From a virus: a stretch of 64,000 nt of DNA. The position numbers and the translations under genes are program-made. Of the stretch, positions 1 through 48,295 are shown piece by piece; position 1 is the stretch's first letter; the number at the start of each line of letters is the position of its first letter. The stretch is taken from IMG/VR virus record IMGVR_UViG_3300044832_000053, positions 1-64,000 of that record; one strand, given 5' to 3'. The notes under the pieces are model-generated. The model searched no databases, had not been told where the DNA came from, and was given only the letters and a program-made list of their open reading frames with translations.

Positions 1-878
1 TCAAGGCCAGCAAGGTCGATGACGTGGTCAACGACCGGCTGGCCAAGTTCCTGGCCATGCGCGCCGCCGATGACCGGCTGCACGCGACGATCAACACCTG
101 CCGGGCCCGGACCAGCCGGATGAGCGTCACCGATCCGTCGCTCCAGAACCTGGACCGGGACGAGACCGTGGTGCGCGGGGCGTTCATCCCTTCCCCGGGC
201 AATGTGTTCGTCACCGTGGACGCCGACCAGATCGAGGCCCGGCTCGGCGCGCACTTCTCCGGCGACCAGCGGATGATCGCCATGTTCGCGGAGGCTGACC
301 GGACCGGGATCGACTTCTTCCGCCAGATGGCCGCGCAAATCCACGGGACCACCATCGGAGACATGCCCAAGTCCGATCAGCGCCGTCAGGTGACCAAGAA
401 CGCTGCCTACTCCTGGCAGTTCGGGGCCGGGCTGGAGAAGATGGCGGTCACCGCAGGGGTGACCGTCGATCAGATGCGCCCGGTGCACTCCGGTCTCAAC
501 GTGCTCTACCCGGGCATCGGCGCGCTGATGAAGAAGCTGATCCGCCAGGGCCGGGCCAGCGGCGGGATGCCCTCCGTGGTCACCCCCACCGGGCGTCGGC
601 TGTTCTCCAGCCCCGGCAAGGAGTACACCCTGCTCAACACCCTGATCCAGGGACACGCCGGGGAAATCCTCAAGCAGGACGCGGTCAACCTGGACGCGGC
701 TGGCTATGGACCCTACATGCGCCTGTTCGTGCACGACGAGATCCTCTTCGAGTTCCCCCGCGAGCACGCTGAGCAGGCGCTGTCGGACATCACCCGTATC
801 CTGACCGACCGGGAGAACTACGCCGTCCCGATCACCTGGGGCGGGACGATCATGGAAGAGAGATGGGCAAAAGTCTGA
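1..878 (+). CDS. DNA polymerase I family A, C-terminal part (5' truncated by window edge)
   Basis: Template-directed phage replicative polymerase, palm and fingers portion. The reading frame is open to the left edge, so the gene begins outside the window; a GTG at 24 is not needed as a start. Motif A appears as VDADQIEARLGAHFSGD, the fingers O-helix motif B as RRQVTKNAAYSWQFGAG and the palm motif C as VHDEILFE. These are the three catalytic motifs of family A polymerases, and their Asp and Lys residues are intact. No proofreading domain can be judged because the N-terminus is missing. The stop overlaps the start region of the RuvC-like gene, so the two are probably co-translated. Confidence 0.93.
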   Translation, partial: KASKVDDVVNDRLAKFLAMRAADDRLHATINTCRARTSRMSVTDPSLQNLDRDETVVRGAFIPSPGNVFVTVDADQIEARLGAHFSGDQRMIAMFAEADRTGIDFFRQMAAQIHGTTIGDMPKSDQRRQVTKNAAYSWQFGAGLEKMAVTAGVTVDQMRPVHSGLNVLYPGIGALMKKLIRQGRASGGMPSVVTPTGRRLFSSPGKEYTLLNTLIQGHAGEILKQDAVNLDAAGYGPYMRLFVHDEILFEFPREHAEQALSDITRILTDRENYAVPITWGGTIMEERWAKV

Positions 879-34196: not shown

Positions 34197-35108
34197 TCAC
34201 ACCCCCGAGAGCAGGCAGATGGACAGCGGCTGGTCCAGGCCGATGGCGCTGGCCCGCTGCGTGTCGGAGCGGAAGGTCTTCTTGGGCTCGTCGCGGTACA
34301 GCGGGCCCGCCATGAACGGCAGCTCGTCGGCGTAAAAGCCGCAGCGCTTGCGCTGCATGATGATCGCGTTGCCCGCCGGGAGCTGGCGGGAGACCATCAC
34401 GTCCAGGTTGAAGATCTTGTTCGGCAGGACCCCGGTGTACTGGAGGTTCTCCGACGCGATGTCACCGATGTACGGCGCGGCGAACGTGCTGCTCTGGAGC
34501 AGGGTGTTCTTCGTGCCGTGGTTGATGATCAGCGTGTCGGCCTCGAAGCCCAGCCACTGCGTGATACCCAGCGGGCTCACGATATTGGCGTTCTCCACGA
34601 GGAAAACGCCTTGTGCCAGGTCGGCCCGGATGGTAGCGGCGGCGCTGGCCCAGGCGTTGGCCACCGAGAGGGTCTGGATCGAGGCGTTCGCGATCACCGC
34701 CGAGAAGAAGGCGGTGTTCCACGAGTAGACCATCGTGTTCTTGACCTGGAGCAACTGCCGGGTCACGGGGTCGATGGACTGCCTGCGGCGCATCTCGTCG
34801 GAGACCATGATCGCCATGGCCCGCTCATGGGTGAACACCACCCGGGGGATGCCGAGGCTGGTCGGCACGACGGGGACCTCACCGAACTCGGGACGGATCT
34901 CGGGGAAGTCGTCCGCGTACAGAGGCGTGCTCTCGCTGTAGCGCACGGCACCGCTGGTCGCGGCCCCGCCATCGCGCAGCACCGAGTCCACGATGAACTC
35001 GTTCTCCGTCATGTCGAGGATCAGCGCCGGGATGACCAGCGGGTCCTTGAGCAGCTCGCTGACAGTGATCCGTGGGGAATCACTGACGCTGGTTGCCGTG
35101 GTGGGCAT
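34197..35108 (-). CDS. major capsid protein
   Basis: The main head subunit, 303 residues, in the classical place after decoration and before connector genes. HK97-like features are an N-terminal LLKDPLVIPALILDM and NEFIVDSVLRDGG, the E-loop region (PVVPTSLGIPRVVFTHERAMA), helices VYSWNTAFFSAVIANASIQT, and the P-domain (LGITQWLGFEADTLIINHGT, ASENLQYTGVLPNKIFNLDVM). Residue stretch ISVSDE-like MVSDEMRRRQSID resembles encapsulin and HK97 families. The scaffold-protease is encoded upstream. Confidence 0.88.
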   Translation of the reverse strand: MPTTATSVSDSPRITVSELLKDPLVIPALILDMTENEFIVDSVLRDGGAATSGAVRYSESTPLYADDFPEIRPEFGEVPVVPTSLGIPRVVFTHERAMAIMVSDEMRRRQSIDPVTRQLLQVKNTMVYSWNTAFFSAVIANASIQTLSVANAWASAAATIRADLAQGVFLVENANIVSPLGITQWLGFEADTLIINHGTKNTLLQSSTFAAPYIGDIASENLQYTGVLPNKIFNLDVMVSRQLPAGNAIIMQRKRCGFYADELPFMAGPLYRDEPKKTFRSDTQRASAIGLDQPLSICLLSGV

Positions 35109-35860: not shown

Positions 35861-37078
35861 TCAGACGCCCGTCTGCTGGCGGTAGCGGGCCACCAGGGAG
35901 GCCCGGCCCTGGTGGGCGGCGGCGGCGTCCTCGCCAGGCTCGGCCCCGAGGGCGGACCCCAGCTCGTTGCCGAGGTCCAGCATCTTGGCCATCTTCCCGA
36001 ACTCGGAGAAGATCTGGCGGACGATCGCGCCCGCGTCCACCTCGGTGCCGTTGGACAGCTCCACGGTGCGCCCGGTGCCCTCCAGCAGCGGCCGGGCCAG
36101 GTCGCAGATGTAGGGCGCGATGCCGTAGGTGGCCATGAACCCGTGGCGCTCGGTCTCGTACCGCTGGGCGTCGAGCTGGTCGGTGACCGCACGGAGCTGG
36201 CGCTCGTTCTCCTCGCTCCGGGCGTTGGCCAGCTCGATGGCGAGCTGGGCGGACCCCGAGAGCTGGGCCCCGGCCCCGGCCTCCTGACCGGCGAGCAGCT
36301 CCGCGAGCTGCTCGTCAGACAGGGGACCGCTGTCGGCCGGGCCGTCGAGGGCCTCGGCTGCGGCGATCAGCTCGGCCAGCTCCTCGTCGGTCAGCTCGGC
36401 GTCCGCCGCCGGGCCAGCCGTGGGACCGGCCGGTGGCGTGGTGTCGAGGCTGGCGATGAGCTTATCCATCTTGTCGTCGGGAACGTCCAGGAGCCTGGCC
36501 AGCCGGGCCTGCTGCTCCGCGTTCAGCTCGGGCATCATGTCTCCTTCTGAATCGGGAGCGTCAAACGTGGCGTCGGAAAGGTCGATGACCGGGAGGTCAT
36601 CGTTGGCAAGGTCCACCTGCTGCCACGGCCCGAGGCCAGGCAGGCGGGGGTCGAGGGTGCCGAGGACGTGCTGGATGGCGGCCGGGAAGAACTGGCCGTC
36701 GGCGCGCTGGTAGTCCTCCACGATCCGGGCACTCACGCCCAGCCGTGGGTTGTCCTTGAGGATCTTGGAGCCCTCGTCCGTGGTGGACAGGGTGAGCCAG
36801 AGCCCGTCGGGCTCGGCGGTCATGGCGGCTACTTCCCCGCCGAAATTGCGGACATCGTTATTGTGCTTGTTGTCCGCCGACGCGAGCTGGAAGGGCACCT
36901 GGCCATAGGCCCGCTGGTGGAATGTCTCAGCCAGCCCGGCCAGGTAGTCCGCCGTGAAGTCGATCTTGCGGCCCTTGTAGTCGATGGAGCCCACCGGCAG
37001 CACCCGCTTGCGCCAGAAGCGCGGCCCGGCGACCCTGGCCGGGGAGCGGGTGTACGGCGTGAGGACGGCGGCTGTCAC
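35861..37078 (-). CDS. capsid maturation protease-scaffold fusion
   Basis: A 405-residue protein with a protease N-terminus (KRVLPVGSIDYKGRKIDF, PFQLASADNKHNNDVRNFGG, LWLTLSTTDEGSKILKDNPRLGVSARI) and a highly acidic, coiled-coil scaffold half. The fold resembles the Mu I-like/S78-related maturation proteases, with D-N-K-H-N the likely catalytic His-Ser region. The scaffold part (LTDEELAELIAAAEALD, ARSEENERQLRAVTDQLDAQ) would be degraded at maturation. The GTG start overlaps the previous stop (GTGA). Confidence 0.82.
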   Translation of the reverse strand: MTAAVLTPYTRSPARVAGPRFWRKRVLPVGSIDYKGRKIDFTADYLAGLAETFHQRAYGQVPFQLASADNKHNNDVRNFGGEVAAMTAEPDGLWLTLSTTDEGSKILKDNPRLGVSARIVEDYQRADGQFFPAAIQHVLGTLDPRLPGLGPWQQVDLANDDLPVIDLSDATFDAPDSEGDMMPELNAEQQARLARLLDVPDDKMDKLIASLDTTPPAGPTAGPAADAELTDEELAELIAAAEALDGPADSGPLSDEQLAELLAGQEAGAGAQLSGSAQLAIELANARSEENERQLRAVTDQLDAQRYETERHGFMATYGIAPYICDLARPLLEGTGRTVELSNGTEVDAGAIVRQIFSEFGKMAKMLDLGNELGSALGAEPGEDAAAAHQGRASLVARYRQQTGV

Positions 37079-37710: not shown

Positions 37711-37868
37711 TCGCCCTCCCCGGCCACGGCCCGCCTGACCAGGTCATCGGCCATCTTGGCGGCCAGGTCAGTGGCCATTCCCTTGCTGATGAGCAGTTTC
37801 CCCAGGATCTCGGTCGCCCTGGCCTGCTGGTCGTCCGTGGCGTCTGCGGCCCGGGGCAGGGGAGCCAT
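37707..37868 (-). CDS. small hypothetical protein (53 aa)
   Basis: A short frame coupled on both sides: its ATG (37868) shares a base with the preceding TGA, and its own TGA overlaps the next ATG (ATGA). The sequence MAPLPRAADATDDQQARAT, then LGKLLISKGMATDLAAKMAD forms a compact helical pair. The tight coupling on both ends strongly suggests a genuine gene. Function unknown. Confidence 0.6.
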   Translation of the reverse strand: MAPLPRAADATDDQQARATEILGKLLISKGMATDLAAKMADDLVRRAVAGEGE

Positions 37869-38425
37869 CACAGCTTCTTCGCGGCGTCGGTGAGTTCCAT
37901 GATCACTAGCGGGCCGAACGAGGCACCCAGGCCCAGCAGGAGCGGAGCGCCGAACGTGGTGGCCAGGGCAACCAGGATCGCGGCGGCCACGATGGTCCCG
38001 ATGTGGACAGCGAGCTTGATCCGGGCCTTCCTGGCTTCCTTCTCGGCAGCCAGCCTCTCCAGCTTCTGCTTGTCCATCTCGATCGCAGCGAGCTTTTTCG
38101 CCACGTCTGAGGCATGTGCCTCGCGGGCGGCTTCCTCGGCCCTGACTTCCTTGAGGACGGGGGCCTGCATGGCCGTGATGGCTATCAGGGACTGGAGCTG
38201 TGCCGCTCCCTGGGCCCTGGCAGCCTGGCTGGCCATGGCAGCGCGCGGGGTTGAGCCGCCCTTGATCCAGCGGCCGTGTGAATCCCGCAGCTCCAGTTCC
38301 ATCTGGGCCAGCTCAATGGCTTCCCGCTCTGTCTCAAGAACGTCAACAGCCATGAGAAACGGGAGGCCAGCGGCGGTGAGGGTGCGGAAATCACGGAGCT
38401 GTCGCTGCGTGATCTGCGTGGGCAT
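37868..38425 (-). CDS. membrane-anchored helical protein with an RDxHGRW tag (185 aa)
   Basis: Begins MPTQITQRQLRDFRTLT. Near residue 45 it carries LAQMELELRDSHGRWIKGG, the same tag as in the two large genes upstream. A long helix follows (ASDVAKKLAAIEMDKQKLERL, EKEARKARIKLAVHIG), then two hydrophobic helices (GTIVAAAILVALATTFG, APLLLGLGASFGPLVIM). ATG 38425 with GAGAGGG upstream is preferred over an earlier in-frame start. An ejected membrane-associated protein is one possibility. Confidence 0.66.
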   Translation of the reverse strand: MPTQITQRQLRDFRTLTAAGLPFLMAVDVLETEREAIELAQMELELRDSHGRWIKGGSTPRAAMASQAARAQGAAQLQSLIAITAMQAPVLKEVRAEEAAREAHASDVAKKLAAIEMDKQKLERLAAEKEARKARIKLAVHIGTIVAAAILVALATTFGAPLLLGLGASFGPLVIMELTDAAKKL

Positions 38426-38464
38426 CAGTGGTGACCCTCTCACTTGATCACTGATGCTACGCGC

Positions 38465-38737
38465 CTAGCCTGCTGTATGCATGCCCACAGAAGCGGCAGT
38501 AGCCAGGACACGGTACTGATCTGCCGTGATCCGGCCCGCGTTGAATGCCAGCTCGACCTCGTACCATGATCCTTCACCGGGCCACGGGCGTCCAGTCAGA
38601 TCGCTGGCAATTGTCTCGTGATACCCGGCCGCCGGGGTGGTCTTTTCCCAGCTCAGGTGCGCGAATTTCACCGCTGCCTCAGCCAGGTCCATGTTCCCCG
38701 AGGTCAGGGCATCAAGGATGTCCCTCACATTGCCCAT
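38465..38737 (-). CDS. hypothetical protein (90 aa)
   Basis: Small helical protein: MGNVRDILDALTSGNMDLAE, VKFAHLSWEKTTP, then WYEVELAFNAGRITADQYRV. The last stretch resembles short helical proteins in which V-E-L-A-F and G-R-I are conserved; it is also reminiscent of the tag in the neighbouring genes. Overlaps the end of the polyvalent gene by 13 nt. Confidence 0.58.
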   Translation of the reverse strand: MGNVRDILDALTSGNMDLAEAAVKFAHLSWEKTTPAAGYHETIASDLTGRPWPGEGSWYEVELAFNAGRITADQYRVLATAASVGMHTAG

Positions 38738-41700
38738 GAGAACTCCAGGCCCTGGCCGGAGCTGGACACGAGCTGCGGCTCGCGGCCGGTCACGGAGTTG
38801 TCGAACTTGTCCCAGGAGTCGAACAATGGCAGGGCCATGGCGAATGTCATCTCGTTCACCGAGATCTCCGGGTCTGAGGTTCCCCAGATCTTCACGATGT
38901 CCGCCGGGGGGACATGCCGCCCGCCGAGCCCCTTGCCCGCCAGCCAGCTCTCCAGCCCCGCGCGGTAGCGGGCCAGCGCCCGGTCGATCGAGACCTGGAG
39001 CGGGACGTCAACATAGACGCCGTGCACATGCCCGTAGCCAGCCGACCGCAGCCGGGCGATGTGCCCGGCCATGTCATCGGCCGGGAGCATGGTCAGGTCC
39101 ACGATGATGTTCTTGCGCATCGCCATCGAGCGGTCCAGCGCCATCTGGGCCAGGTGATGTGCCTCGTCGCTCACCAGCGGGCTGGCTTCCATGGGTGACA
39201 GGTTCCCGACGTGGGGCACCAGCCCGCGCTTGGCCAGCTCGGCCTTGAAATCATCCGGGGCGATGGGCAGGTAGTCGTCCATGTTCATGCCGGGCAGCTT
39301 GCCCAGTGCGGTGGTCTTGCCCGCGCCTGGCAGGCCGCCGCCGAAGATCGCCCGGCCCCCGTTGGGCACTGCGGCCGAGCGCGCCATGACCGCGTCGATG
39401 ATCTCCTTGTGGATCGCGGCGCGCTCGGGGGTGTAGATCTGCCCGTCCCCGCTCACGGACTGGGTAACCGCCGTGTTCTGCCCGGCCGCGAAGGCGTCAG
39501 TCAGGGTCTGCTCCACTACGTGCTGCCGTCCCGTGAACTCGGCGTCCGTCAGCGGCCGGGCTGCCTGGCCGCTGATCCCGTGCGCGACCGTGGGTGATTC
39601 CTCGTAGTCGAGGTTGTCGTCTTCCTCGTCCCAGCGGTGGGTGTAGGCGGACGGCGTGATGTACGGGCCAGCGGAGATCAGGCCCTTGTCCCCGGCCGGG
39701 GGCGGCCCGGCCTTGACCGGCTTCCAGCCGTGCGTGTAGACGAAGGGCGTGCCCGGGATGTGACGGCCATGGCCGTCGCCGGTCAGGTCTAGCTGGGCGC
39801 TGACCGTGGCAGTGCCGCGACCGAGTCCGCCAGGGCCCGTGCGATCTCCAGCCGCCTGGCCTCCGGCAGCTCGCGATAGCTGGACGGGACCGGCCCCGCC
39901 ACCACCTTGGGCGTGGGCTCCGCTGGCTGCTCCACCGCTACCTCCTGCCTGGATCTCCCGGCCGCCGGTCACGTCCCAGATAGCCGCCTGGCCGCGCTTC
40001 CTGCCCTCCGCGAGCGCCTGCTCCCGGCTGGCAATGTTGTCGCTCGGCTCCAGCCAGAGCTTACCGTCGTGCACCCATCCGCCCAGGTAGGTGTCTTTCC
40101 CGGCGAACGCCTGGTGCTCGCTCATGATCATGCCGTCAATGGCACGGGCCAGCTTCTCCCGGTCATCGAGGATCTCAGCCGGGAAGGTGTGCGTGTGCCC
40201 GGCCTGGGCAACCATGAACCCGCTGGCTGGCTTGCCGCCGGTCCGCATGCTGACCGAGAATCCTCCCCGGTTCTGCGCGGCCGAGGCTGCCTTGCTGCGG
40301 ATGGTGAACGGGCCGGGCCGGGGCGGCCCGGGTGAGGGGCGGAACATGCCCGCGATGGCCTGCTGCATCCGGGGGGGTTCCCCGCTGGGCAGGTTCACCC
40401 AGCGGCCCCGGAAGTCACGGGGCTCGTGAGCACTGAACGCCAGGTCGATGCCCGCTGCCTGGCCGCTCAGTGTGGTAGTCCCCGGGACCACCGGAACGTG
40501 ATGGGCAGCGGCGAACTTCTTCCAGATCCCCCAGTCCCGGGCGGTGTTGGCGGTGCGCCCGCGCTCCCGGGCCGTGACCGCTGCCGCGTCGGCCGCCTGG
40601 TTGGCGGCCTGCTGGTGCAGCCAGGTGATCGCCTGGAGCTGGGATGGGGTGACCAGGTGACCCTGCCGGGACAGCTCCGCAGCCGCCAGCCGGTAGGTGT
40701 CCGCGACGTGCTCGTAGTAGCGCTTGTCCCCGATGGGCGAGGCGTCGATCTCCTCCGTGGTCACCCGGTGCCCGGCCGCGACGGACAGGGCGTGCCGGTC
40801 AATGACCACCTGGCCGAGCCGGTCGGAGGATGCGTCCCCGCCGTGAGCGATCAGCTTCGCGAACGCCCGGGTCTTGGGGGACTTGAGGGCGTCGATACTG
40901 CCGGTGTCCATGGCCCGCTGCGCGGCCCGCTGCTCGGGGCGGCTGATGAAGCCCTCACCGGGGCCCAGGGCGCGGCCCAGCTCCAGCGAGCGGGCCGCGT
41001 TGAACAGGTTCTCCGGCCAGTTCACCTGCGGGGAGAACGCGGCCAGCACCGCCGCGCCCTTCTCCGCATCCCCGCCCGCGATGGACCGGGCCACCATCTG
41101 TGCGTCGGCGTACCAGCGCATCCCCTGGGCCTTCTCAGCCGGGGCAGCCGCGCTGTAGGCGGCAACGATGTTCGCCGGGCTGACCGGCACCGACTTGAAG
41201 AACGGGTGATCCGCCGGGCTCACGATGGAGCTGCGCGGGTTGGCCAGCCGGGAGGGGTCCGGGGCCGCGTACTCATGGCCGCTCACGCTCCACCGGCCAT
41301 GAGGGTCCCGCAGCTCGGCGGGGTTGTAGTGCCAGCCGCCCGCCAGGTCAACGCTGAACTCCCGGAACTGGCCCAGCGCCACCCGGTCCGCGTGCGTGTA
41401 TCCCTTCACCGGCTTGTAGGAGTGGATGAACTCCGGGGGCAGCGGCTTGCGGATCGCCCGGTATCCCATGTGGCTGGTGCTGGGATACAGGAACTCAGCT
41501 TCCCTGGCCTTGGGCACCCGGATGTCGATCAGCATGCCCGGCTTAGACGGCCATTCAAGATCATCGTGCCGCTCGTACGCGACGATCTGCGACTCGTTGC
41601 TGTCTGGGGACAGCACTGGGTCGTACCCGTCATACCCGGCTGCGTGCAGGCCCTGGTCCCGGATCGACCGGGCGGCCTCCGGCGTGGTGCCGTGGAAGAA

Positions 41701-43980
41701 CTGGGTGTAGCTGGACGGGTCAGCCTCCGGCCCGCCCCGGGTCCACTCGCCATGCTCGTTGCGCAGCTCGTGCACCCAGTTGCCTGCGCTGGGCCTGGGG
41801 CTGGGGCTGCCGGAATCCTTCTTATTCCACCAGCTCAGCTCAACACTGAACTCCCCGCCGCCGGGTCCCAGCTCACCGGCCCGCTCCATCATGTCCGAGT
41901 ACCACATCTGGTGACCCAGCCGCTCGAACTGGGGCTCCAGCTTGGCCAGCTCCGCCCGGATCTTGTTGGCGTAGTCCTGCGGGATGTTCGAGGGCTCCTC
42001 ATTCCAGAACGTGGTAGAAGCCGCGCCATCTCCGGCATATATGAAGCCCGAGCTGTTGTCGATGGCCACCGGGCTGCCGGACGGGGTGACCATCCAGTTA
42101 TTGGAGTGGCGGTCCGGGTTCTGGATCAGGAAGTCCAGCAGCCCGATCTTCTGGCCGTCCTCTGACTGGGTCAACTCGCTCTGGGCTCCGTAAGGTGCAT
42201 CAGCCAGGTACCGCGAGGCGGTCGTGCCCGGGACAAAGCCCATGACCTCCTCAGCAGGATCACCCCCGCTGACGCGGGCGATGGGCGGTGAGGGTGCCCC
42301 GATGGCCTGGGCGACGTAGTAGGCCAGCTCGTCGGTGTCCGCCATCTCCTCATAACCGGAGTGGTAGATCTTGTGCACCACCTTCTCGCCATTGGGCAGG
42401 GTCACGATGTCCACATTGCCCTGGACCCCCTGCTGAGGGTGCATGGACTCGCCCTCTGCGAGCTGATCCGGGGTAGCGATCTGCTCCAGGTGCTGTACGG
42501 CCGGGCTGGACGGTCCCAGCCCTCCCGGCTGCGGCATGCCCGGCAGCAGGTATTGCTTGACGCCCGTCGTGACCATCACCCCGGGGGCGGTCTGCCGGGG
42601 AGGCTCAGGCAGTCCCGCCAGGATCTTGGACGCCGGGACCGGGGTGCCCAGCAGGCCGTTGACCCGCCTGACCAGTTCAGGTCCGGCCTGGTACTCCCCG
42701 CCCGCGACAAACTGCCGGGCAAGCTGCTGGGCCCGGCCCTCGTTGATCGCCTGGTGCCGCTCCGCTCCTGCGGCGCGGGCGGATACCCGGTGCTCCATGA
42801 CCGCAGCCCAGGTCTGCCCCTGGATACTGGGCGGGATCTGGGATAGCTGCTGGGCCTGGAGGACGTTACCCCCGTTCCGCCAGTCCACCAGGTAGCGGTT
42901 CCCGTCATCGGATTCGACCACCACGTTGCTGCTGGTCATGGCGGTGACCCGGCCTACCCCGCCATGGCCGTCGCGGGCCATGTCCCCGAGCTTCGGCTCC
43001 CGGTTGCCGGGCAGGAAGGCGGCCCCGGCCCCGCTGCCGTGCGGGCCGATGAATTCCCACTGCTTCCCGCCCGGGGATGGGCTGGGCGTCTCCGCCTGCG
43101 GGTTGAATGCGGGCCGGGGCGTGCCCATCTTCATCCCGCCCAGTCGCGGGCCAGCCTGGCTGAGCGGGACGGTGTGCACGGGGGCACCACCGTTGCGCCA
43201 GTCCACCAGGTGACGCTTCTGGTCGTTGGCGTCGATCACCGCATGGCCGCCGCCTTTGTTGACGACCCTCCCCCAAACGCCCTGGCTGTTGCGTGCCTGG
43301 TCATTGACCTGCGGCTCCGCCACTACCTGGGAGCCACCCCGGATGAACTGCCAGCGGCCGAGGATCGCGGGCCCGGCGACCTCATCCGCCAGCAGCGCCC
43401 GGTGCAGCCTGGATTCCTGGTTCAGGGCACTTACCTGGGCAGCGGTGCCTGAAACCTGCCGGAAATCAGCACCGTGCACGGGCTGGAGCTGGGCCGCGAC
43501 CGAGTCCGGTGCCTGGCCGTGTATTCCCGGGTGTGCGCCCCGGATGATCTGGCCCTGCTCATCCACTGTCCAGGTGTCGAGATTCTCCCGGCGGTTGTTG
43601 TGCTGGACCCGCCGCAGTCTCTGGGCGTTGACCAGCCGGTCCTCGCCTATCTGATCCCGGATCGACTCCGGCCCCATCCCACGGGCCCGCAGGACCCGGG
43701 CCCGGTTAATCTCCGCCCCGTCGCGGAGGCCCTTGGGGGTCGGGGCCTGCTTCATCCGGTCTGCCCGCTCCTGGGCCGCCGCCGCGTCATGCTTGGCCTG
43801 CCACATGATCCCGTTGATGGCGGTCGGGCCGTAACCCCGTGCCGCGAGTGCAACGCGCTTGCGCTGGTCCTCCAGGGCCGTGGCGGAGAATCCGGGCCTC
43901 TTCGCCCAGCGCCCGTGGGTGTCACGGAGCTGATTGGGCTGGAAGTGCCAGGCCAGGTCCACCTGCTCGCTGATGCTCAC
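38725..43980 (-). CDS. polyvalent multi-effector protein: kinase-like, ART-like, helical, LPD-like and zeta-toxin-like domains
   Basis: A 1751-residue protein in the head region, probably packaged and ejected. Domains in order: tag 1 (VDLAWHFQPNQLRDTHGRW, 7-25); two tandem LVDWRNGG modules (235-274, 337-381); a HipA/PI3K-type kinase-like domain (520-710: VVHKIYH, LLDFLIQNPDRHSNNWMV, AIDNSSGF); tag 2 (ELRNEHGEW, 738-746); an ART-like domain (755-862, FFHGTTPEAARSIRDQGL); tag 3 (VDLAGGWHYNPAELRDPHGR, 877-896); a helical domain (918-1160: AFSPQVNWPEN, IDRHAL, QAITW); tag 4 (IDLAFSAHEPRDFRGRW, 1178-1194); a polyvalent-associated-like domain (1222-1345); and a zeta-toxin-like P-loop domain (1535-1700: FGGGLPGAGKTT, IIVDLTM). 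Start GTG overlaps the upstream stop. Each domain call rests on motifs only. Confidence 0.82.
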   Translation of the reverse strand: MSISEQVDLAWHFQPNQLRDTHGRWAKRPGFSATALEDQRKRVALAARGYGPTAINGIMWQAKHDAAAAQERADRMKQAPTPKGLRDGAEINRARVLRARGMGPESIRDQIGEDRLVNAQRLRRVQHNNRRENLDTWTVDEQGQIIRGAHPGIHGQAPDSVAAQLQPVHGADFRQVSGTAAQVSALNQESRLHRALLADEVAGPAILGRWQFIRGGSQVVAEPQVNDQARNSQGVWGRVVNKGGGHAVIDANDQKRHLVDWRNGGAPVHTVPLSQAGPRLGGMKMGTPRPAFNPQAETPSPSPGGKQWEFIGPHGSGAGAAFLPGNREPKLGDMARDGHGGVGRVTAMTSSNVVVESDDGNRYLVDWRNGGNVLQAQQLSQIPPSIQGQTWAAVMEHRVSARAAGAERHQAINEGRAQQLARQFVAGGEYQAGPELVRRVNGLLGTPVPASKILAGLPEPPRQTAPGVMVTTGVKQYLLPGMPQPGGLGPSSPAVQHLEQIATPDQLAEGESMHPQQGVQGNVDIVTLPNGEKVVHKIYHSGYEEMADTDELAYYVAQAIGAPSPPIARVSGGDPAEEVMGFVPGTTASRYLADAPYGAQSELTQSEDGQKIGLLDFLIQNPDRHSNNWMVTPSGSPVAIDNSSGFIYAGDGAASTTFWNEEPSNIPQDYANKIRAELAKLEPQFERLGHQMWYSDMMERAGELGPGGGEFSVELSWWNKKDSGSPSPRPSAGNWVHELRNEHGEWTRGGPEADPSSYTQFFHGTTPEAARSIRDQGLHAAGYDGYDPVLSPDSNESQIVAYERHDDLEWPSKPGMLIDIRVPKAREAEFLYPSTSHMGYRAIRKPLPPEFIHSYKPVKGYTHADRVALGQFREFSVDLAGGWHYNPAELRDPHGRWSVSGHEYAAPDPSRLANPRSSIVSPADHPFFKSVPVSPANIVAAYSAAAPAEKAQGMRWYADAQMVARSIAGGDAEKGAAVLAAFSPQVNWPENLFNAARSLELGRALGPGEGFISRPEQRAAQRAMDTGSIDALKSPKTRAFAKLIAHGGDASSDRLGQVVIDRHALSVAAGHRVTTEEIDASPIGDKRYYEHVADTYRLAAAELSRQGHLVTPSQLQAITWLHQQAANQAADAAAVTARERGRTANTARDWGIWKKFAAAHHVPVVPGTTTLSGQAAGIDLAFSAHEPRDFRGRWVNLPSGEPPRMQQAIAGMFRPSPGPPRPGPFTIRSKAASAAQNRGGFSVSMRTGGKPASGFMVAQAGHTHTFPAEILDDREKLARAIDGMIMSEHQAFAGKDTYLGGWVHDGKLWLEPSDNIASREQALAEGRKRGQAAIWDVTGGREIQAGGSGGAASGAHAQGGGGAGPVQLSRAAGGQAAGDRTGPGGLGRGTATVSAQLDLTGDGHGRHIPGTPFVYTHGWKPVKAGPPPAGDKGLISAGPYITPSAYTHRWDEEDDNLDYEESPTVAHGISGQAARPLTDAEFTGRQHVVEQTLTDAFAAGQNTAVTQSVSGDGQIYTPERAAIHKEIIDAVMARSAAVPNGGRAIFGGGLPGAGKTTALGKLPGMNMDDYLPIAPDDFKAELAKRGLVPHVGNLSPMEASPLVSDEAHHLAQMALDRSMAMRKNIIVDLTMLPADDMAGHIARLRSAGYGHVHGVYVDVPLQVSIDRALARYRAGLESWLAGKGLGGRHVPPADIVKIWGTSDPEISVNEMTFAMALPLFDSWDKFDNSVTGREPQLVSSSGQGLEFSWAM

Positions 43981-44198
43981 GGGTGCACCCAGACGTACCC
44001 GTTGCTCCAGCCGTCCAGGGACTCGAACGCGATCTCCGCATCACCGCCAGCCCGGCGCAGCGCTGAGTCCGCGATGGCCTGGCTGGACTCGCTGCTGCCG
44101 GTCAGGCGGTCCGTGTCCAGCCTGATGGTGCCGAGCTGGCCCTGCTCATCGAAGACCCCCAGCGTCAGCGGCTCACCGGCCTGGCTGGAGATGCTCAC
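43977..44198 (-). CDS. hypothetical protein (73 aa)
   Basis: Small protein starting MSISSQAGEPLTLGVFDEQG and ending FESLDGWSNGYVWVHP, with TIRLDTDRLTGSSESSQA between. Coupled to neighbours by GTGA overlaps on both sides, which supports it as real. Family unknown. Confidence 0.58.
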   Translation of the reverse strand: MSISSQAGEPLTLGVFDEQGQLGTIRLDTDRLTGSSESSQAIADSALRRAGGDAEIAFESLDGWSNGYVWVHP

Positions 44199-45883
44199 AG
44201 CTTGCTGGCCGCGAAAGTGAGCTGGGCGGCCTGGGTACGGAGCTGGGAGATCTGCTTGCGGACCGCCAGGATACGGCTGGTCAGGTTAGCCGTGGCACTG
44301 GCCTTCGTGGTCTTGGACGCGGCCCTGGTCACGGCCTTCTTCGCGCTCGCGGCCGTGGTCTTCTTCGAGGTGGCAGCCTTCCTCGCCGCTGCCGCCGTGG
44401 TCTTCTTCGACCCGGTGGTGTGCTGCTTGGTGTGCGCCGCGTGCTGGGCCCTGAGCTGTGCTTCCAGCCCCTTGAGAACGATGGACAGTGCGTTGGCCTT
44501 CTGCCGGTCCGCCTTGGCCCGGGATAGCAGCTTGCGCTTCTTCACCTGCTTCGAGCCCCCGGCCGGGGCCGCGCCACCCGCGCCCCAGGTCCCGCCAGCG
44601 GTCCGGGGCTCAGCCGGGTTGAATCCGGCCAGCTCGACGGACTCATACCACTCATTGGAATGGCTGGAATCCTGGGCATGAGCCCGTGCGGACATCGAGG
44701 CCAGCCCGGCCAGGGCCTTCACCGCAGCCGCCCTGACCTCGGGGTGCACGCTGCCGCCTCCGGCCGCCCACTTGCGGATCGAGCCCCAGGTGATCGCCGT
44801 GGCCGACCCCTCGCTGTGCCCGGCCCGGATCAGTGCGTTGCGGACGTTCTGGAAGTAGGGCGGGAACTCCATGCCCTTGACGTGGTAGGCCCCCGGCCCG
44901 CCTGGCTTCCCGATCGGGGCGGGCGTGACCGCCAGCCGGGCGGTGTCGGCGGACATCTCCAGGGCCTGGGAACTGATGGTTGAGTACCCCTGCGGAGGGG
45001 GTGCCTGGGTGTGGGCAGCCATGGAGTACGGGGCGGTCATCCCCGGCCCGGTGACCCGGTAGTCATGAGTTATCGCGCCCACCCCGGCGGGCACGCCTGC
45101 CAGGCTGGCGCGGACCGCCCGGACATCCTGGACCGCCAGCGGGCTGGTGTGCCGGGCGGCCCACTCGGCCGAGTCCAGCGCCTTGCGTGCGTGCCCCATC
45201 TTGCGCATCGCGGTGAACCGGGCGGCGGCGCGCATCGAGGTGCGCAGCATCTCAGCCGCCGGTCCGGGACTTGCGTTGTTGCGCAGCTCGCCCTGGGGCT
45301 GGTACTTGTCACCGACGCCCTCGATGGCCCGGATATGCGAGAACCCGCCGGGTGCACCGGAGTAGCTGAATGAGCTGTGCCCGCCCGGCCCGAGGACCCA
45401 CCGCCCGTCCGGGCCCCGGAGCTGGTCAGGGTGGAAGGCCAGCTCGATGCTGTAGTCCTGCTGGCCGGTGCCGGTTCCGTTCAGGTTCGCGATGTCAAAA
45501 CCCCCGGGCTGGTCCCCGGCCGCCCCGGGCCGTATCCCGCTGCCTTTCACGTCGGCCCTGGCCGCCGCCTGCTGGTCGCGGTACGCCTGGTTGGATGCCT
45601 CAGCGTCCTCGATGTCCTTGATCAGCAGGCAGTGCCGGTTGATCATGTCCATGTGCCGCTTGGCGTGGGCGTGCCCGTCATCGTCGGTGATGCCGTGCCG
45701 GTACAGCGACAGCGGGGCCAGGGTGTGCATCGCGGCGGCCAGGTGCCTCCCGGCCGACTCGGTCTTGCCCCGGTGCATCGAGTTCGCCGCGTCCCGCAGG
45801 TGATCCCCGACGCCCAGCTCGGGCAGCACCTGGTCGGTGCGATGGGCCACGCCCCGGATGGATGTGGCCACGGCCTGCTTCAT
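44195..45883 (-). CDS. internal/MuF-associated head protein with two tags and a histone H1-like tail (562 aa)
   Basis: Helical N-terminal domain (GVGDHLRDAANSMHRGKTES, LAAAMHTLAPLSLYRHG). A tag follows (YSIELAFHPDQLRGPDGRWV, residues 144-163), then a middle domain with FPPYFQNVRNALIRAGHSEG and SIRKWAAGGGSVHPEVRAAA. A second tag is degenerate (VELAGFNPAEPRTAGGTW, 416-433). The last 125 residues are Lys/Ala/Thr-rich (KKTTAAAARKAATSKKTTAA), like histone H1 C-termini, ending in a coiled coil. The frame is open to ATG 46114, but that would overlap the MuF gene by 205 nt; ATG 45883 avoids this. Likely packaged with DNA. Confidence 0.7.
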   Translation of the reverse strand: MKQAVATSIRGVAHRTDQVLPELGVGDHLRDAANSMHRGKTESAGRHLAAAMHTLAPLSLYRHGITDDDGHAHAKRHMDMINRHCLLIKDIEDAEASNQAYRDQQAAARADVKGSGIRPGAAGDQPGGFDIANLNGTGTGQQDYSIELAFHPDQLRGPDGRWVLGPGGHSSFSYSGAPGGFSHIRAIEGVGDKYQPQGELRNNASPGPAAEMLRTSMRAAARFTAMRKMGHARKALDSAEWAARHTSPLAVQDVRAVRASLAGVPAGVGAITHDYRVTGPGMTAPYSMAAHTQAPPPQGYSTISSQALEMSADTARLAVTPAPIGKPGGPGAYHVKGMEFPPYFQNVRNALIRAGHSEGSATAITWGSIRKWAAGGGSVHPEVRAAAVKALAGLASMSARAHAQDSSHSNEWYESVELAGFNPAEPRTAGGTWGAGGAAPAGGSKQVKKRKLLSRAKADRQKANALSIVLKGLEAQLRAQHAAHTKQHTTGSKKTTAAAARKAATSKKTTAASAKKAVTRAASKTTKASATANLTSRILAVRKQISQLRTQAAQLTFAASKL

Positions 45884-45909
45884 GCCGCCGGTCGCGATCA
45901 GCCTGCTGC

Positions 45910-46533
45910 CTACGCGGCCAGGCGCACCAGGGTTGGCAGGAGCGGCGCTCCCCTGAACGGGGCCACCGGGTGGCACCGGCAGTGCGGGTGCACCGTTCCC
46001 GGGTACCCGATTGCCGGGGGGATTGCGGCCAGGAAGTTGCGGCCGTCCGCTGCCTTGCACTCGGGCGACGTCCGGGCGTCGTGTACTGACTGCCATCCGA
46101 GAACCTTTCCCCATCTGTAAGCCGCGCCGTCGATGGCCGACCCGGCCATGATGCGCCCCTGGTTGGCCTCGAAGTGCTGGCCGAAGTAGCGGGATTCGGT
46201 CTCGGCCAGCCGGTCAAGCGCCTCGGCACGTGGCTCGCCCCGGCTGGCGGCCCCGGCCAGGCCGTCCTGGATGCGGTGGGCGGCGGCCACGAAGAACGCT
46301 GAGCGCCGGGCGATGTTGGCGTGCGCAGCCCATCGGGTGGCCGGGCCGACGCCCTCGATCCGGTCAGGCGGGTAGCGGGTCTCGATGGCGATCACCGCGC
46401 GCAGCGCCGGGCCGCTGATGCCCGCGCCATGGAACGTCCCGGCGATCTGCGTGAAGATGCCAGCCGCCGACGGGTAGGCCGCGAACGCCCGCGCTGCGGT
46501 AAGCGCGAGCATGGCATCGCTGCGGGCGCTCAT
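45910..46533 (-). CDS. MuF-like minor head protein
   Basis: Phage head morphogenesis protein of 207 residues after the portal. Helical N-terminal domain (MSARSDAMLALTAARAFAAY, IAGTFHGAGISGPALRAV), ALDRLAETESRYFGQHFEAN, and a C-terminal ARTSPECKAADGRNF ... GTVHPHCRCHPVAPF, which is the C...G...HPxCRC signature of SPP1 gp7/MuF proteins. MuF proteins sit near the portal and are often ejected or fused to effector domains. ATG 46533 overlaps the preceding stop (ATGA). Confidence 0.86.
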   Translation of the reverse strand: MSARSDAMLALTAARAFAAYPSAAGIFTQIAGTFHGAGISGPALRAVIAIETRYPPDRIEGVGPATRWAAHANIARRSAFFVAAAHRIQDGLAGAASRGEPRAEALDRLAETESRYFGQHFEANQGRIMAGSAIDGAAYRWGKVLGWQSVHDARTSPECKAADGRNFLAAIPPAIGYPGTVHPHCRCHPVAPFRGAPLLPTLVRLAA

Positions 46534-46727
46534 ACCGGGTGGACCGTCCCGTCCCGGGCGAAGTGCTCGTCCACGGTGTGCCCGTACTCCATCGCGTGCA
46601 TCGCGGCGTCGTTGAGCACCCCGGGGATGGTCATGGGGTAGCTGGTGGTGCTGGCGGTCTCGGTGAAATCGCCGTCCTGGCAGGTCACGGTCATGGTCTC
46701 GGTTGAGTCGATCCTGATGGGGGTCAT
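46530..46727 (-). CDS. small hypothetical protein (65 aa)
   Basis: MTPIRIDSTETMTVTCQDGD, then a beta-rich FTETASTTSYPMTIPGVLND and HAMEYGHTVDEHFARDG. It overlaps the portal stop (ATGA) and the MuF start (ATGA), which supports it as a coupled gene between them. Family unknown. Confidence 0.62.
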   Translation of the reverse strand: MTPIRIDSTETMTVTCQDGDFTETASTTSYPMTIPGVLNDAAMHAMEYGHTVDEHFARDGTVHPV

Positions 46728-48295
46728 GCCATCTTCCCGGGTGGCGGCACCATGGGCGGCTTGCCCGGCGGCCGTGGCGGCCCGGCAGCACTCTGGCGCG
46801 GTGGCATCTGCCCGGGGGCGGGGACCTGGCCACCCGTGGCCTGGTGGGCGATGCCCAGCGCGGTGCTGGCCATGCCGTTGAGCGCGCCCACCCCGGCCAG
46901 GGCCGAGGGGGGCATGCCGGGAGGGGCCCCGGCGGCCCCGGCGAGCTGGGCGGCCCGCTGGGACGCTGAGTTGACCAGCGCGGTGTGCACCTGGTCGATG
47001 TCGAGCTGGAGGACCGAGGCCATCCGCTCGGCCAGCAGGTCCACGAACTCGATGGGGATGTGCAGCGCGGGGGCGGCGACGATCTGCCCGAACAGGGTCA
47101 GCAGCGCCTGGATCTGCTCGTCCTGGAGCGGCCCGAACTTGAACTTGGGGAAGGCGGCGTCGGGCCCGAAGTTCAGGATGATCATGGGAGCGATGACGTC
47201 GTGGCTGATCCACCCGGCCATCTCCTTGGCCACAGCCTGCCGGGACTTGAGGTAGAAGCTGGACTGGTCCTGGGACAGCGCGTAGCTTCCCTTGCCGCCC
47301 GTGGATGCCCCGGTCAGGCCCATGAACCCGGCCAGTACCGAGCCGATCTGCCACTGCTCCAGGAAGCCCAGGGCCTCCTTGAAGATCGCGCCGCCCTCGC
47401 CAGCCGCCGGGATGGTCTCGAACGACTTCTGGCCCGCCTCGGGATGGACCAGGCCCACCACGCCGGAGGACCGCAGCGAGGCAATGTCATCCGCGCGGGT
47501 GTTGGCCTCGGGCTGGTCATTGCCGTAGACGATCGTGCGCGGCAGGGCCAGGTTTTCGAGGTAGTTGTACCAGAGGAACAGCAGCTTCATCTTGGTCTGG
47601 TAGCACCAGTAGGCGATCTCCATCTCGCTGACCCCGACCAGGGGCTCGCGGTGGGTGCCGTGGGTGTAGATGGCGCTGCGGATCTTGGGGATGTCCACGT
47701 ACCCGGGGACCTTGGACTTGGCCTGGAGGGTGTTGGCCTGGCCGAACATCCACACGAGCTGGCGGAACCCGTTCGGGTTCCCGCTCCGCTCGTTGAACGC
47801 GCTCTGGCAGGTGGACGGCGGCCGGTAAGCGAGCTTGTCAAGCACCACCCGCTCGTCGCTGGCCCGGATCTTCCAGACCTTCTCGAAGAACGCCTTCTTG
47901 TAGATCTGCCCGGACGTGACCTGGCCGATGAACTGCTCGATGGGCGTCTGCATGCCGCCCTCGGTGTCCGGGGTCATCAGCACCGAGTTGGCCAGGTCGG
48001 CCTCGCCCTTGTCGCCCTTGGCGGGCTCGATGGACTGGTCAGCCTCGCGGACGGGCAGGGTCAGCACCATCTCGATGGCCGAGCACTGGCCATCGCGGCG
48101 GAACATGGTTTTCATGTCCCGCGCGCCCCACTCGCCATAGTCGAAGACGTCGCCGGAGCCGAAGTAGGCGAACAGCTTCTGGCCGTAGTCGAACGCGGTC
48201 CCGATCTCCGGGCCCATCAGGTCCCGGCGGTCACCGGGCTTGAGGTCGGGGAACTTGAGGATGCGGGCGGTGGACGGGTCGCGGGCTGCCATCAC
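46724..48295 (-). CDS. portal protein (Mu gp29/DUF935-like)
   Basis: A 523-residue portal subunit. FDYGQKLFAYFGSGDVFDYG, MKTMFRRDGQCSAIEMVLTL, PVREADQSIEPAKG and FEKVWKI fit the DUF935-type portal (wing and clip), and KLLFLWYNYLENLALPRTIVY, ALGFLEQWQIGSVLAGFMGL and LSQDQSSFYLKSRQAVAKEM the stem and crown helices. The last 60 residues are Pro/Ala/Gly-rich. A GTG at 48295 is adjacent to the terminase stop; ATG 48292 is the alternative start. Confidence 0.9.
   Translation of the reverse strand: MMAARDPSTARILKFPDLKPGDRRDLMGPEIGTAFDYGQKLFAYFGSGDVFDYGEWGARDMKTMFRRDGQCSAIEMVLTLPVREADQSIEPAKGDKGEADLANSVLMTPDTEGGMQTPIEQFIGQVTSGQIYKKAFFEKVWKIRASDERVVLDKLAYRPPSTCQSAFNERSGNPNGFRQLVWMFGQANTLQAKSKVPGYVDIPKIRSAIYTHGTHREPLVGVSEMEIAYWCYQTKMKLLFLWYNYLENLALPRTIVYGNDQPEANTRADDIASLRSSGVVGLVHPEAGQKSFETIPAAGEGGAIFKEALGFLEQWQIGSVLAGFMGLTGASTGGKGSYALSQDQSSFYLKSRQAVAKEMAGWISHDVIAPMIILNFGPDAAFPKFKFGPLQDEQIQALLTLFGQIVAAPALHIPIEFVDLLAERMASVLQLDIDQVHTALVNSASQRAAQLAGAAGAPPGMPPSALAGVGALNGMASTALGIAHQATGGQVPAPGQMPPRQSAAGPPRPPGKPPMVPPPGKMA

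Follow-up and report, generated by a model that had tools for sequence, protein, structure and literature searches.

The stretch of viral DNA analysed here (the window, 64,000 nucleotides) is part of a 78,925-base IMG/VR virus record, and its head genes lie on the minus strand in the order terminase, portal, MuF-like protein, a 639-amino-acid (aa) ORF, a 1751-aa protein, a 191-aa protein, a 211-aa protein, a probable protease/scaffold and the probable major capsid protein. The portal protein (46724..48295, minus strand) matches Portal_Mu with an E-value of 3e-30, and the MuF-like protein (45910..46833, minus strand) is assigned at 1.3e-5, just under the Pfam cut-off. The 639-aa ORF (44195..46114, minus strand) is without a family match and overlaps the MuF gene, and its true start may be further downstream. 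Next in the order, the 1751-aa protein (38725..43980, minus strand) has the make-up of a polyvalent protein: encoded between the MuF and protease/scaffold genes, it combines a PI3/4-kinase-like stretch (residues 611-646, below the Pfam cut-off), a DUF7178 module (residues 936-1121; 40618-41175) and a zeta toxin (residues 1544-1695). On a reading of the sequence only, an ART-like stretch may lie between its second and third tags, described below. The 191-aa protein (37868..38443, minus strand) has no family match above the cut-off. The protein encoded at 35861..37078 (minus strand) has no direct family match, Mu-like_Pro (PF10123) included; its homologue Magritte gp19 (phmmer E 1e-9) matches PF10123, the Mu gpI family (9e-9), as well as a PHROG of head-maturation proteases (2e-9), through which the protein is probably a Mu gpI-type prohead protease and scaffold. 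Finally, the product of 34197..35108 (minus strand) is probably the major capsid protein, as judged from gene order and from a comparison by eye with the annotated capsid proteins of LazerLemon and Mwe-JY05, and it carries no tag.

The 639-aa ORF, the 1751-aa protein and the 191-aa protein share a short tag, all copies of which lie on the minus strand. In the polyvalent protein, Tag 1 (VDLAWHFQPNQLRDTHGRW, residues 7-25; 43906..43962) directly follows the GTG start, and Tag 2 (NWVHELRNEHGEW) occupies residues 734-746 (41743..41781). Tag 3 (VDLAGGWHYNPAELRDPHGRW, residues 877-897; 41290..41352) and Tag 4 (GIDLAFSAHEPRDFRGRW, residues 1177-1194; 40399..40452), both with a leader, lie ahead of and after DUF7178, respectively. 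The 639-aa ORF has Tag 5 with its leader (IELAFHPDQLRGPDGRW, residues 223-239; 45398..45448) and the degenerate Tag 6 (VELAGFNPAEPRTAGGTW, residues 493-510; 44585..44638), as well as an orphan leader without a core, ISSQALEMSAD (ISSQALEMS; 44945..44977). Tag 7 with its leader (AIELAQMELELRDSHGRW) is found at residues 42-59 of the 191-aa protein (38267..38320). The earlier note had counted about seven copies over these three adjacent genes, four of them in the 1751-residue protein (7-25, 738-746, 880-897 and 1181-1194), two in the gene at 44195 and one in the gene at 37868. All seven are present there, together with a weak, degenerate eighth copy without a leader at residues 224-236 of the polyvalent protein (QVNDQARNSQGVW; 43273..43311), and they lie at N-termini or between modules, in agreement with the placement at the N-terminus and near domain junctions given in that note. 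The note had described the tag as acidic-LA...LRDxHGRW; its acidic-LA part is a separable leader.

Two further features of this region were observed. The C-terminal 120 aa of the 639-aa ORF (44195-44555), directly after a tag, are histone-like and rich in Lys and Ala, with a pI of 12.0 and a net charge of +26. A second short recurring motif, [FY]xYxHGW, replaces the core behind leader-like sequences, as in YTHGWKPV in the C-terminal part of the 1751-aa polyvalent protein and FRYKHGWILI in LazerLemon gp8, and is also seen in the tagged ORFs of L041 and L043 (AIELAFRYRHGWIKL).

A conserved core and a phage-specific leader

The tag consists of two parts, a near-universal core and a leader that is specific to each phage. 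The core comprises about 13 residues, roughly [FW][ND][PE]xx[PH]R[DG]xxG[RK][WF], and comes in two variants, FNPx[EQ]PRDxxGxW and DExxHPRDxxGxF. The leader takes up some 8-14 residues ahead of the core, is alike among the tags of one phage and differs between phages; in the window clade it reads [IV][ED]L[AG]. In an alignment of 67 non-redundant tag stretches of this clade, two or three of which are probably spurious, the invariance of R, G and W is imposed by the search pattern itself. A strong bias is seen at positions that the pattern left free, namely the FNPxQ/AWxHE residues upstream of the R and the leader [hydrophobic][ED][LF][AG], and the leader is present in 55 of the 67 stretches versus 11% of random stretches from the same proteins. 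In the tags found beyond this clade, conservation ends sharply at the upstream edge of the core, and downstream follows a Gly-rich linker. As the core Arg is written with six different codons and the core Gly with four, conservation acts on the protein and not on the DNA, and a DNA-level repeat or recombination site is not favoured.

The specificity of the leader was assessed in 34 multi-tag viral contigs, where the 8 residues before the core are more similar within than between contigs (z 7.3, 0 of 500 permutations). This signal is weaker further upstream (z 2.7) and gone at +19..29 (z 0.8), and an independent second set gives z 4.8 for the same leader test, -0.3 further up and 1.1 at +19..29. 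The similarity within contigs thus argues that each phage has its own leader, although recent duplication of leader-plus-core units could also be its cause.

The occurrence of the tag was counted in 74 sequences (0.87 Mb) made up of the window, the rest of its record and 72 portal relatives fetched from IMG/VR. A relaxed motif is found 91 times on plus frames and 10 times on minus frames, the latter including the window's own tags, whose genes run on the minus strand, and reversed and permuted motifs do not occur in these sequences. In the 35 relatives in which the portal could be placed, 115 tags were counted in the 290 kb downstream of the portal gene, whereas the 226 kb upstream of it and the opposite strand contain none; a single phage carries up to seven or eight copies. 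With no occurrence of the control motifs and placement only downstream of the portal, chance or composition was rejected as the source of the tag.

Tagged proteins and spread of the tag

The tag extends well beyond the window clade. When FNPx[EQ]PRDxxGxW was searched as a degenerate DNA pattern, 110 stretches were recovered in viral contigs, where its reversed-codon control recovered none, and 23 in bacterial and archaeal genomes (257 Gb). The pattern for DExxHPRDxxGxF gave at least 120 viral-contig stretches versus none for its reversed-codon control, and every retrieved match of both patterns is in frame. Searches by tblastn with made-up tag chimeras found only a small number of phages, which is to be expected when a 20-residue motif is sought in 2.3 Gb, and some of the matches, those in Orisa03 and PhiXhv-5, proved on inspection to lack the tag. 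No convincing tag was found in the plasmid records searched. The earlier note had named random matches in unrelated cytoplasmic proteins as evidence against its proposal. Of 150 genomes from a single bacterial phylum, 3 have matches to a 21-position profile, among them one preselected for its tag, which leaves 2 of the 149 otherwise unselected genomes; with so few matches the profile does not hit cytoplasmic proteins at random, and a generic cytoplasmic motif was rejected.

The domains that Pfam identifies in 86 tagged proteins from beyond the window clade include MuF (8), ART (8), portal (5+3) and S78 prohead protease (5), and further zeta toxin, DUF7178, PI3/4-kinase, RelA/SpoT, NUDIX, RNase A toxin, PBECR3, InPase and 2'-5' RNA ligase. 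Matches to PHROGs extend this list by portal, minor head, head morphogenesis and maturation protease proteins, and the genes near tagged genes include portals and terminases, in keeping with the co-occurrence with MuF/portal loci for which the earlier note proposed to look. The tags again lie at N-termini or between modules. For example, one protein has a portal domain (75-420), a tag at 517, ART (547-663) and a tag at 688, another has MuF (460-543), a tag at 572, ART (604-710) and tags at 757, 998 and 1382, and a third has a tag at 33, an S78 protease (255-358) and tags at 373, 638 and 804. Nearly all DUF7178 relatives of the window clade carry an exact or degenerate tag immediately ahead of the domain, and among those that extend far enough most also carry one behind it. 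The tag subtypes ahead of one and the same domain differ between phages.

The tag lies outside the folded domains. AlphaFold predicts DUF7178 with high confidence and the tags with low confidence (pLDDT ~40-60 in front and ~40 behind), so that the idea of the tag belonging to the DUF7178 fold is not supported; the flanking tags probably lie in flexible linkers in this model, in which a shallow alignment can also give a low pLDDT. The high-confidence model of DUF7178 is all-helical, with no similar fold found in the PDB, and the predicted fold may be new.

Most tags are internal, despite an enrichment at N-termini, where 30 first tags lie within 25 residues of the upstream stop versus 12.7 expected if they were uniformly placed. 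Very basic head-region proteins of cultured phages carry the tag just after the start codon, as in Konstantine gp15 (pI 12.0), three genes of Nocardia P3.1 (pI 11.3-11.6) and Predator gp14. Konstantine gp15 (L211:7934-8707) and a Nocardia P3.1 protein (L213:9007-9717; pI 11.3) are annotated as head or capsid maturation proteases, yet they have no Pfam protease match and match only their own annotated PHROG, which makes this annotation doubtful.

Some tags are found in toxin-like proteins on bacterial chromosomes, outside evident prophages. These small proteins, mostly from Rhizobiales, combine the tag with a leader of helical appearance and a C-terminal domain that resembles toxins (L194:1447-2319, L192:939-1649, L205:5092-5709, L206:5846-6604, L208:5372-6241 and L209:3783-4565), and the L194 protein has a match to the CdiA-CT RNase A toxin (E 2e-13). 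Their gene neighbours include DUF2019, DUF6968 and DUF1353, possibly immunity genes, and the loci look like tag-toxin cassettes.

Relation to known phage systems

The capsid-targeting sequence (CTS) of the T4 proteins IPI-III and Alt is a short N-terminal signal, common to several injected proteins, that interacts with the prohead core and is a substrate of the prohead protease, which cuts it (PMC7411985). Like the CTS, the present tag is a short signal common to several proteins encoded among the head genes of one phage. However, the CTS spans 10-20 residues, is N-terminal only and is removed, whereas the present tag is internal and repeated and has a core common to unrelated phages. Since it is not confined to the extreme N-terminus, the tag is set apart from the T4 CTS family, though by analogy it may be likened to a capsid-targeting sequence. 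Phage P1 packs the polyvalent anti-restriction proteins DarA and DarB into its head, which resemble the tagged polyvalent carriers described here. According to the parts of the reports covered, the N-terminal signal of DarB is enough to direct a reporter to the capsid (PMC9024508) and the N-terminus of DarA is presumed to be removed by Pro (PMC12810830); unlike the repeated tags, DarB has one N-terminal signal, and these parts describe no comparable core motif. In SPN3US, several head and ejection proteins share a short recurring motif, the prohead-protease site AXE (PMC7411985). It differs from the present tag in being three residues long, in having its cleavage shown by mass spectrometry and in lacking an extended conserved core.

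The polyvalent proteins and MuF polymorphic toxins share with the present carriers the kinds of effector domains, the late-gene neighbourhood and the MuF/portal fusions, yet these families are defined by domains, and the sections covered mention no interdomain tag (PMC5512222, PMC5576092). Nor is such a tag mentioned in the covered portions of the literature on polyvalent proteins, MuF toxins and viral NAD systems, and the motif letters were not found in the open-access papers searched. Scans of the tagged proteins against Pfam, PHROGs and NCBIfam returned no tag model, and a PDB sequence search with the tag gave no significant match. Thus, the tag seems previously undescribed. In that PDB search, chain c of 8rk3, a virion structural protein, was seen to contain LRDPAGRW (200-207) and QLRDSFGKF (245-253), 45 residues apart, which at an E-value of 1.7 may be chance.

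Possible functions of the tag

On balance, the tag is probably a modular head-loading tag for capsid-packed proteins, perhaps also cut at the leader. Proteins would be packed inside the capsid via the tag and presumably then delivered into the host. The leader would dock on a phage-specific head component such as the scaffold, protease or portal, and the core would be recognised by a factor that many tailed phages share, or be left as the mature N-terminus of a module. In stand-alone effectors the tag is N-terminal, and polyvalent proteins have one before each module, either through fusion of tagged genes or with prohead-protease cuts at the leaders. A loading tag that may be cut is preferred because the T4 CTS does both, and because in P1 the N-terminus of DarB targets and that of DarA is thought to be removed. 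The proposal of the earlier note, a head-packaging-linked tag common to several effectors, is strongly supported by the location, co-occurrence and spread of the tag; for its choice between a targeting sequence and a protease site there are points on both sides.

Tags at start codons and their enrichment at N-termini speak for targeting, as does the finding that the major capsid proteins looked at carry neither core nor leader. Conversely, the repeated copies between modules and the leader-like motifs around the protease speak for cleavage, and could mean that the tag is primarily a prohead-protease site, which appears rather unlikely. The leader of each copy would then be cut and the modules freed from a polyprotein during head maturation, with the core as a recognition element or new N-terminus. 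Consistent with such cutting, leaders are phage-specific, as is protease specificity, tags flank the S78 protease domain in other phages, and the copies behind portal, MuF or protease domains are unneeded for loading, as their carrier reaches the head anyway. Moreover, [AV][IV][ED][LM][ASG] motifs occur before, behind and inside the putative protease/scaffold across the window clade; in the window these are QQVDLAN and VIDLS after the protease domain (residues 153-168; 36575..36622, minus strand) and AIELA in the scaffold part (residues 280-284; 36227..36241, minus strand). The same motifs are found in LazerLemon and Mwe-JY05 and partly in Magritte, portal-gene relatives with no canonical core in the regions read, and the resemblance of the clade leader to motifs beside the putative protease makes cutting there plausible. 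However, only the leader half is found in the protease/scaffold, where the core is absent, and full-leader matches number just 2 in 4160 aa of protease homologues versus 25 in 304,202 aa of other ORFs. In addition, a cut at a tag directly after the start codon would release nothing, a conserved 13-residue core is unusual for such a site, and the major capsid proteins looked at have no tag. Against head loading, in turn, it also counts that a polypeptide should need no more than a single copy for its targeting, and that some tags sit in the bacterial chromosomal toxin-like proteins.

It could also be speculated that the tag has its role once the proteins are packed, for example in signalling ejection or unfolding through the portal, or in binding a host factor inside the cell. 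The tag does precede the module to be delivered and is also found on effectors fused to portal or MuF, where no loading signal is needed, yet the phage-specific leader, seen also among contigs of mixed origin, suits a phage partner better than a host partner, and such a role is improbable. Least probable, and by our judgement very much so, is a mere conserved linker or a recombination seam for module exchange with no function of its own. The position always at module boundaries, the Gly-rich linker that follows and the varying tag subtype before one domain would agree with a seam, but the amino acids are kept while codons vary, the same core recurs in unrelated phages, and a neutral linker would neither keep a 13-residue core nor stay in one gene region.

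The head-loading tag may, more tentatively, be part of a wide cargo code, in which the 13-residue core would be read by a conserved head component and mark virion-delivered effectors in the phages of many hosts, the leader would give phage specificity, and the bacterial tag-toxin cassettes would ride in the heads of phages or gene-transfer agents; this is possible but somewhat doubtful. How proteins are selected for packing into the head is largely open beyond T4, P1 and a few models. A recognisable tag would allow candidate injected effectors to be listed in phage genomes from sequence alone, and it could serve for loading chosen proteins into phage heads.
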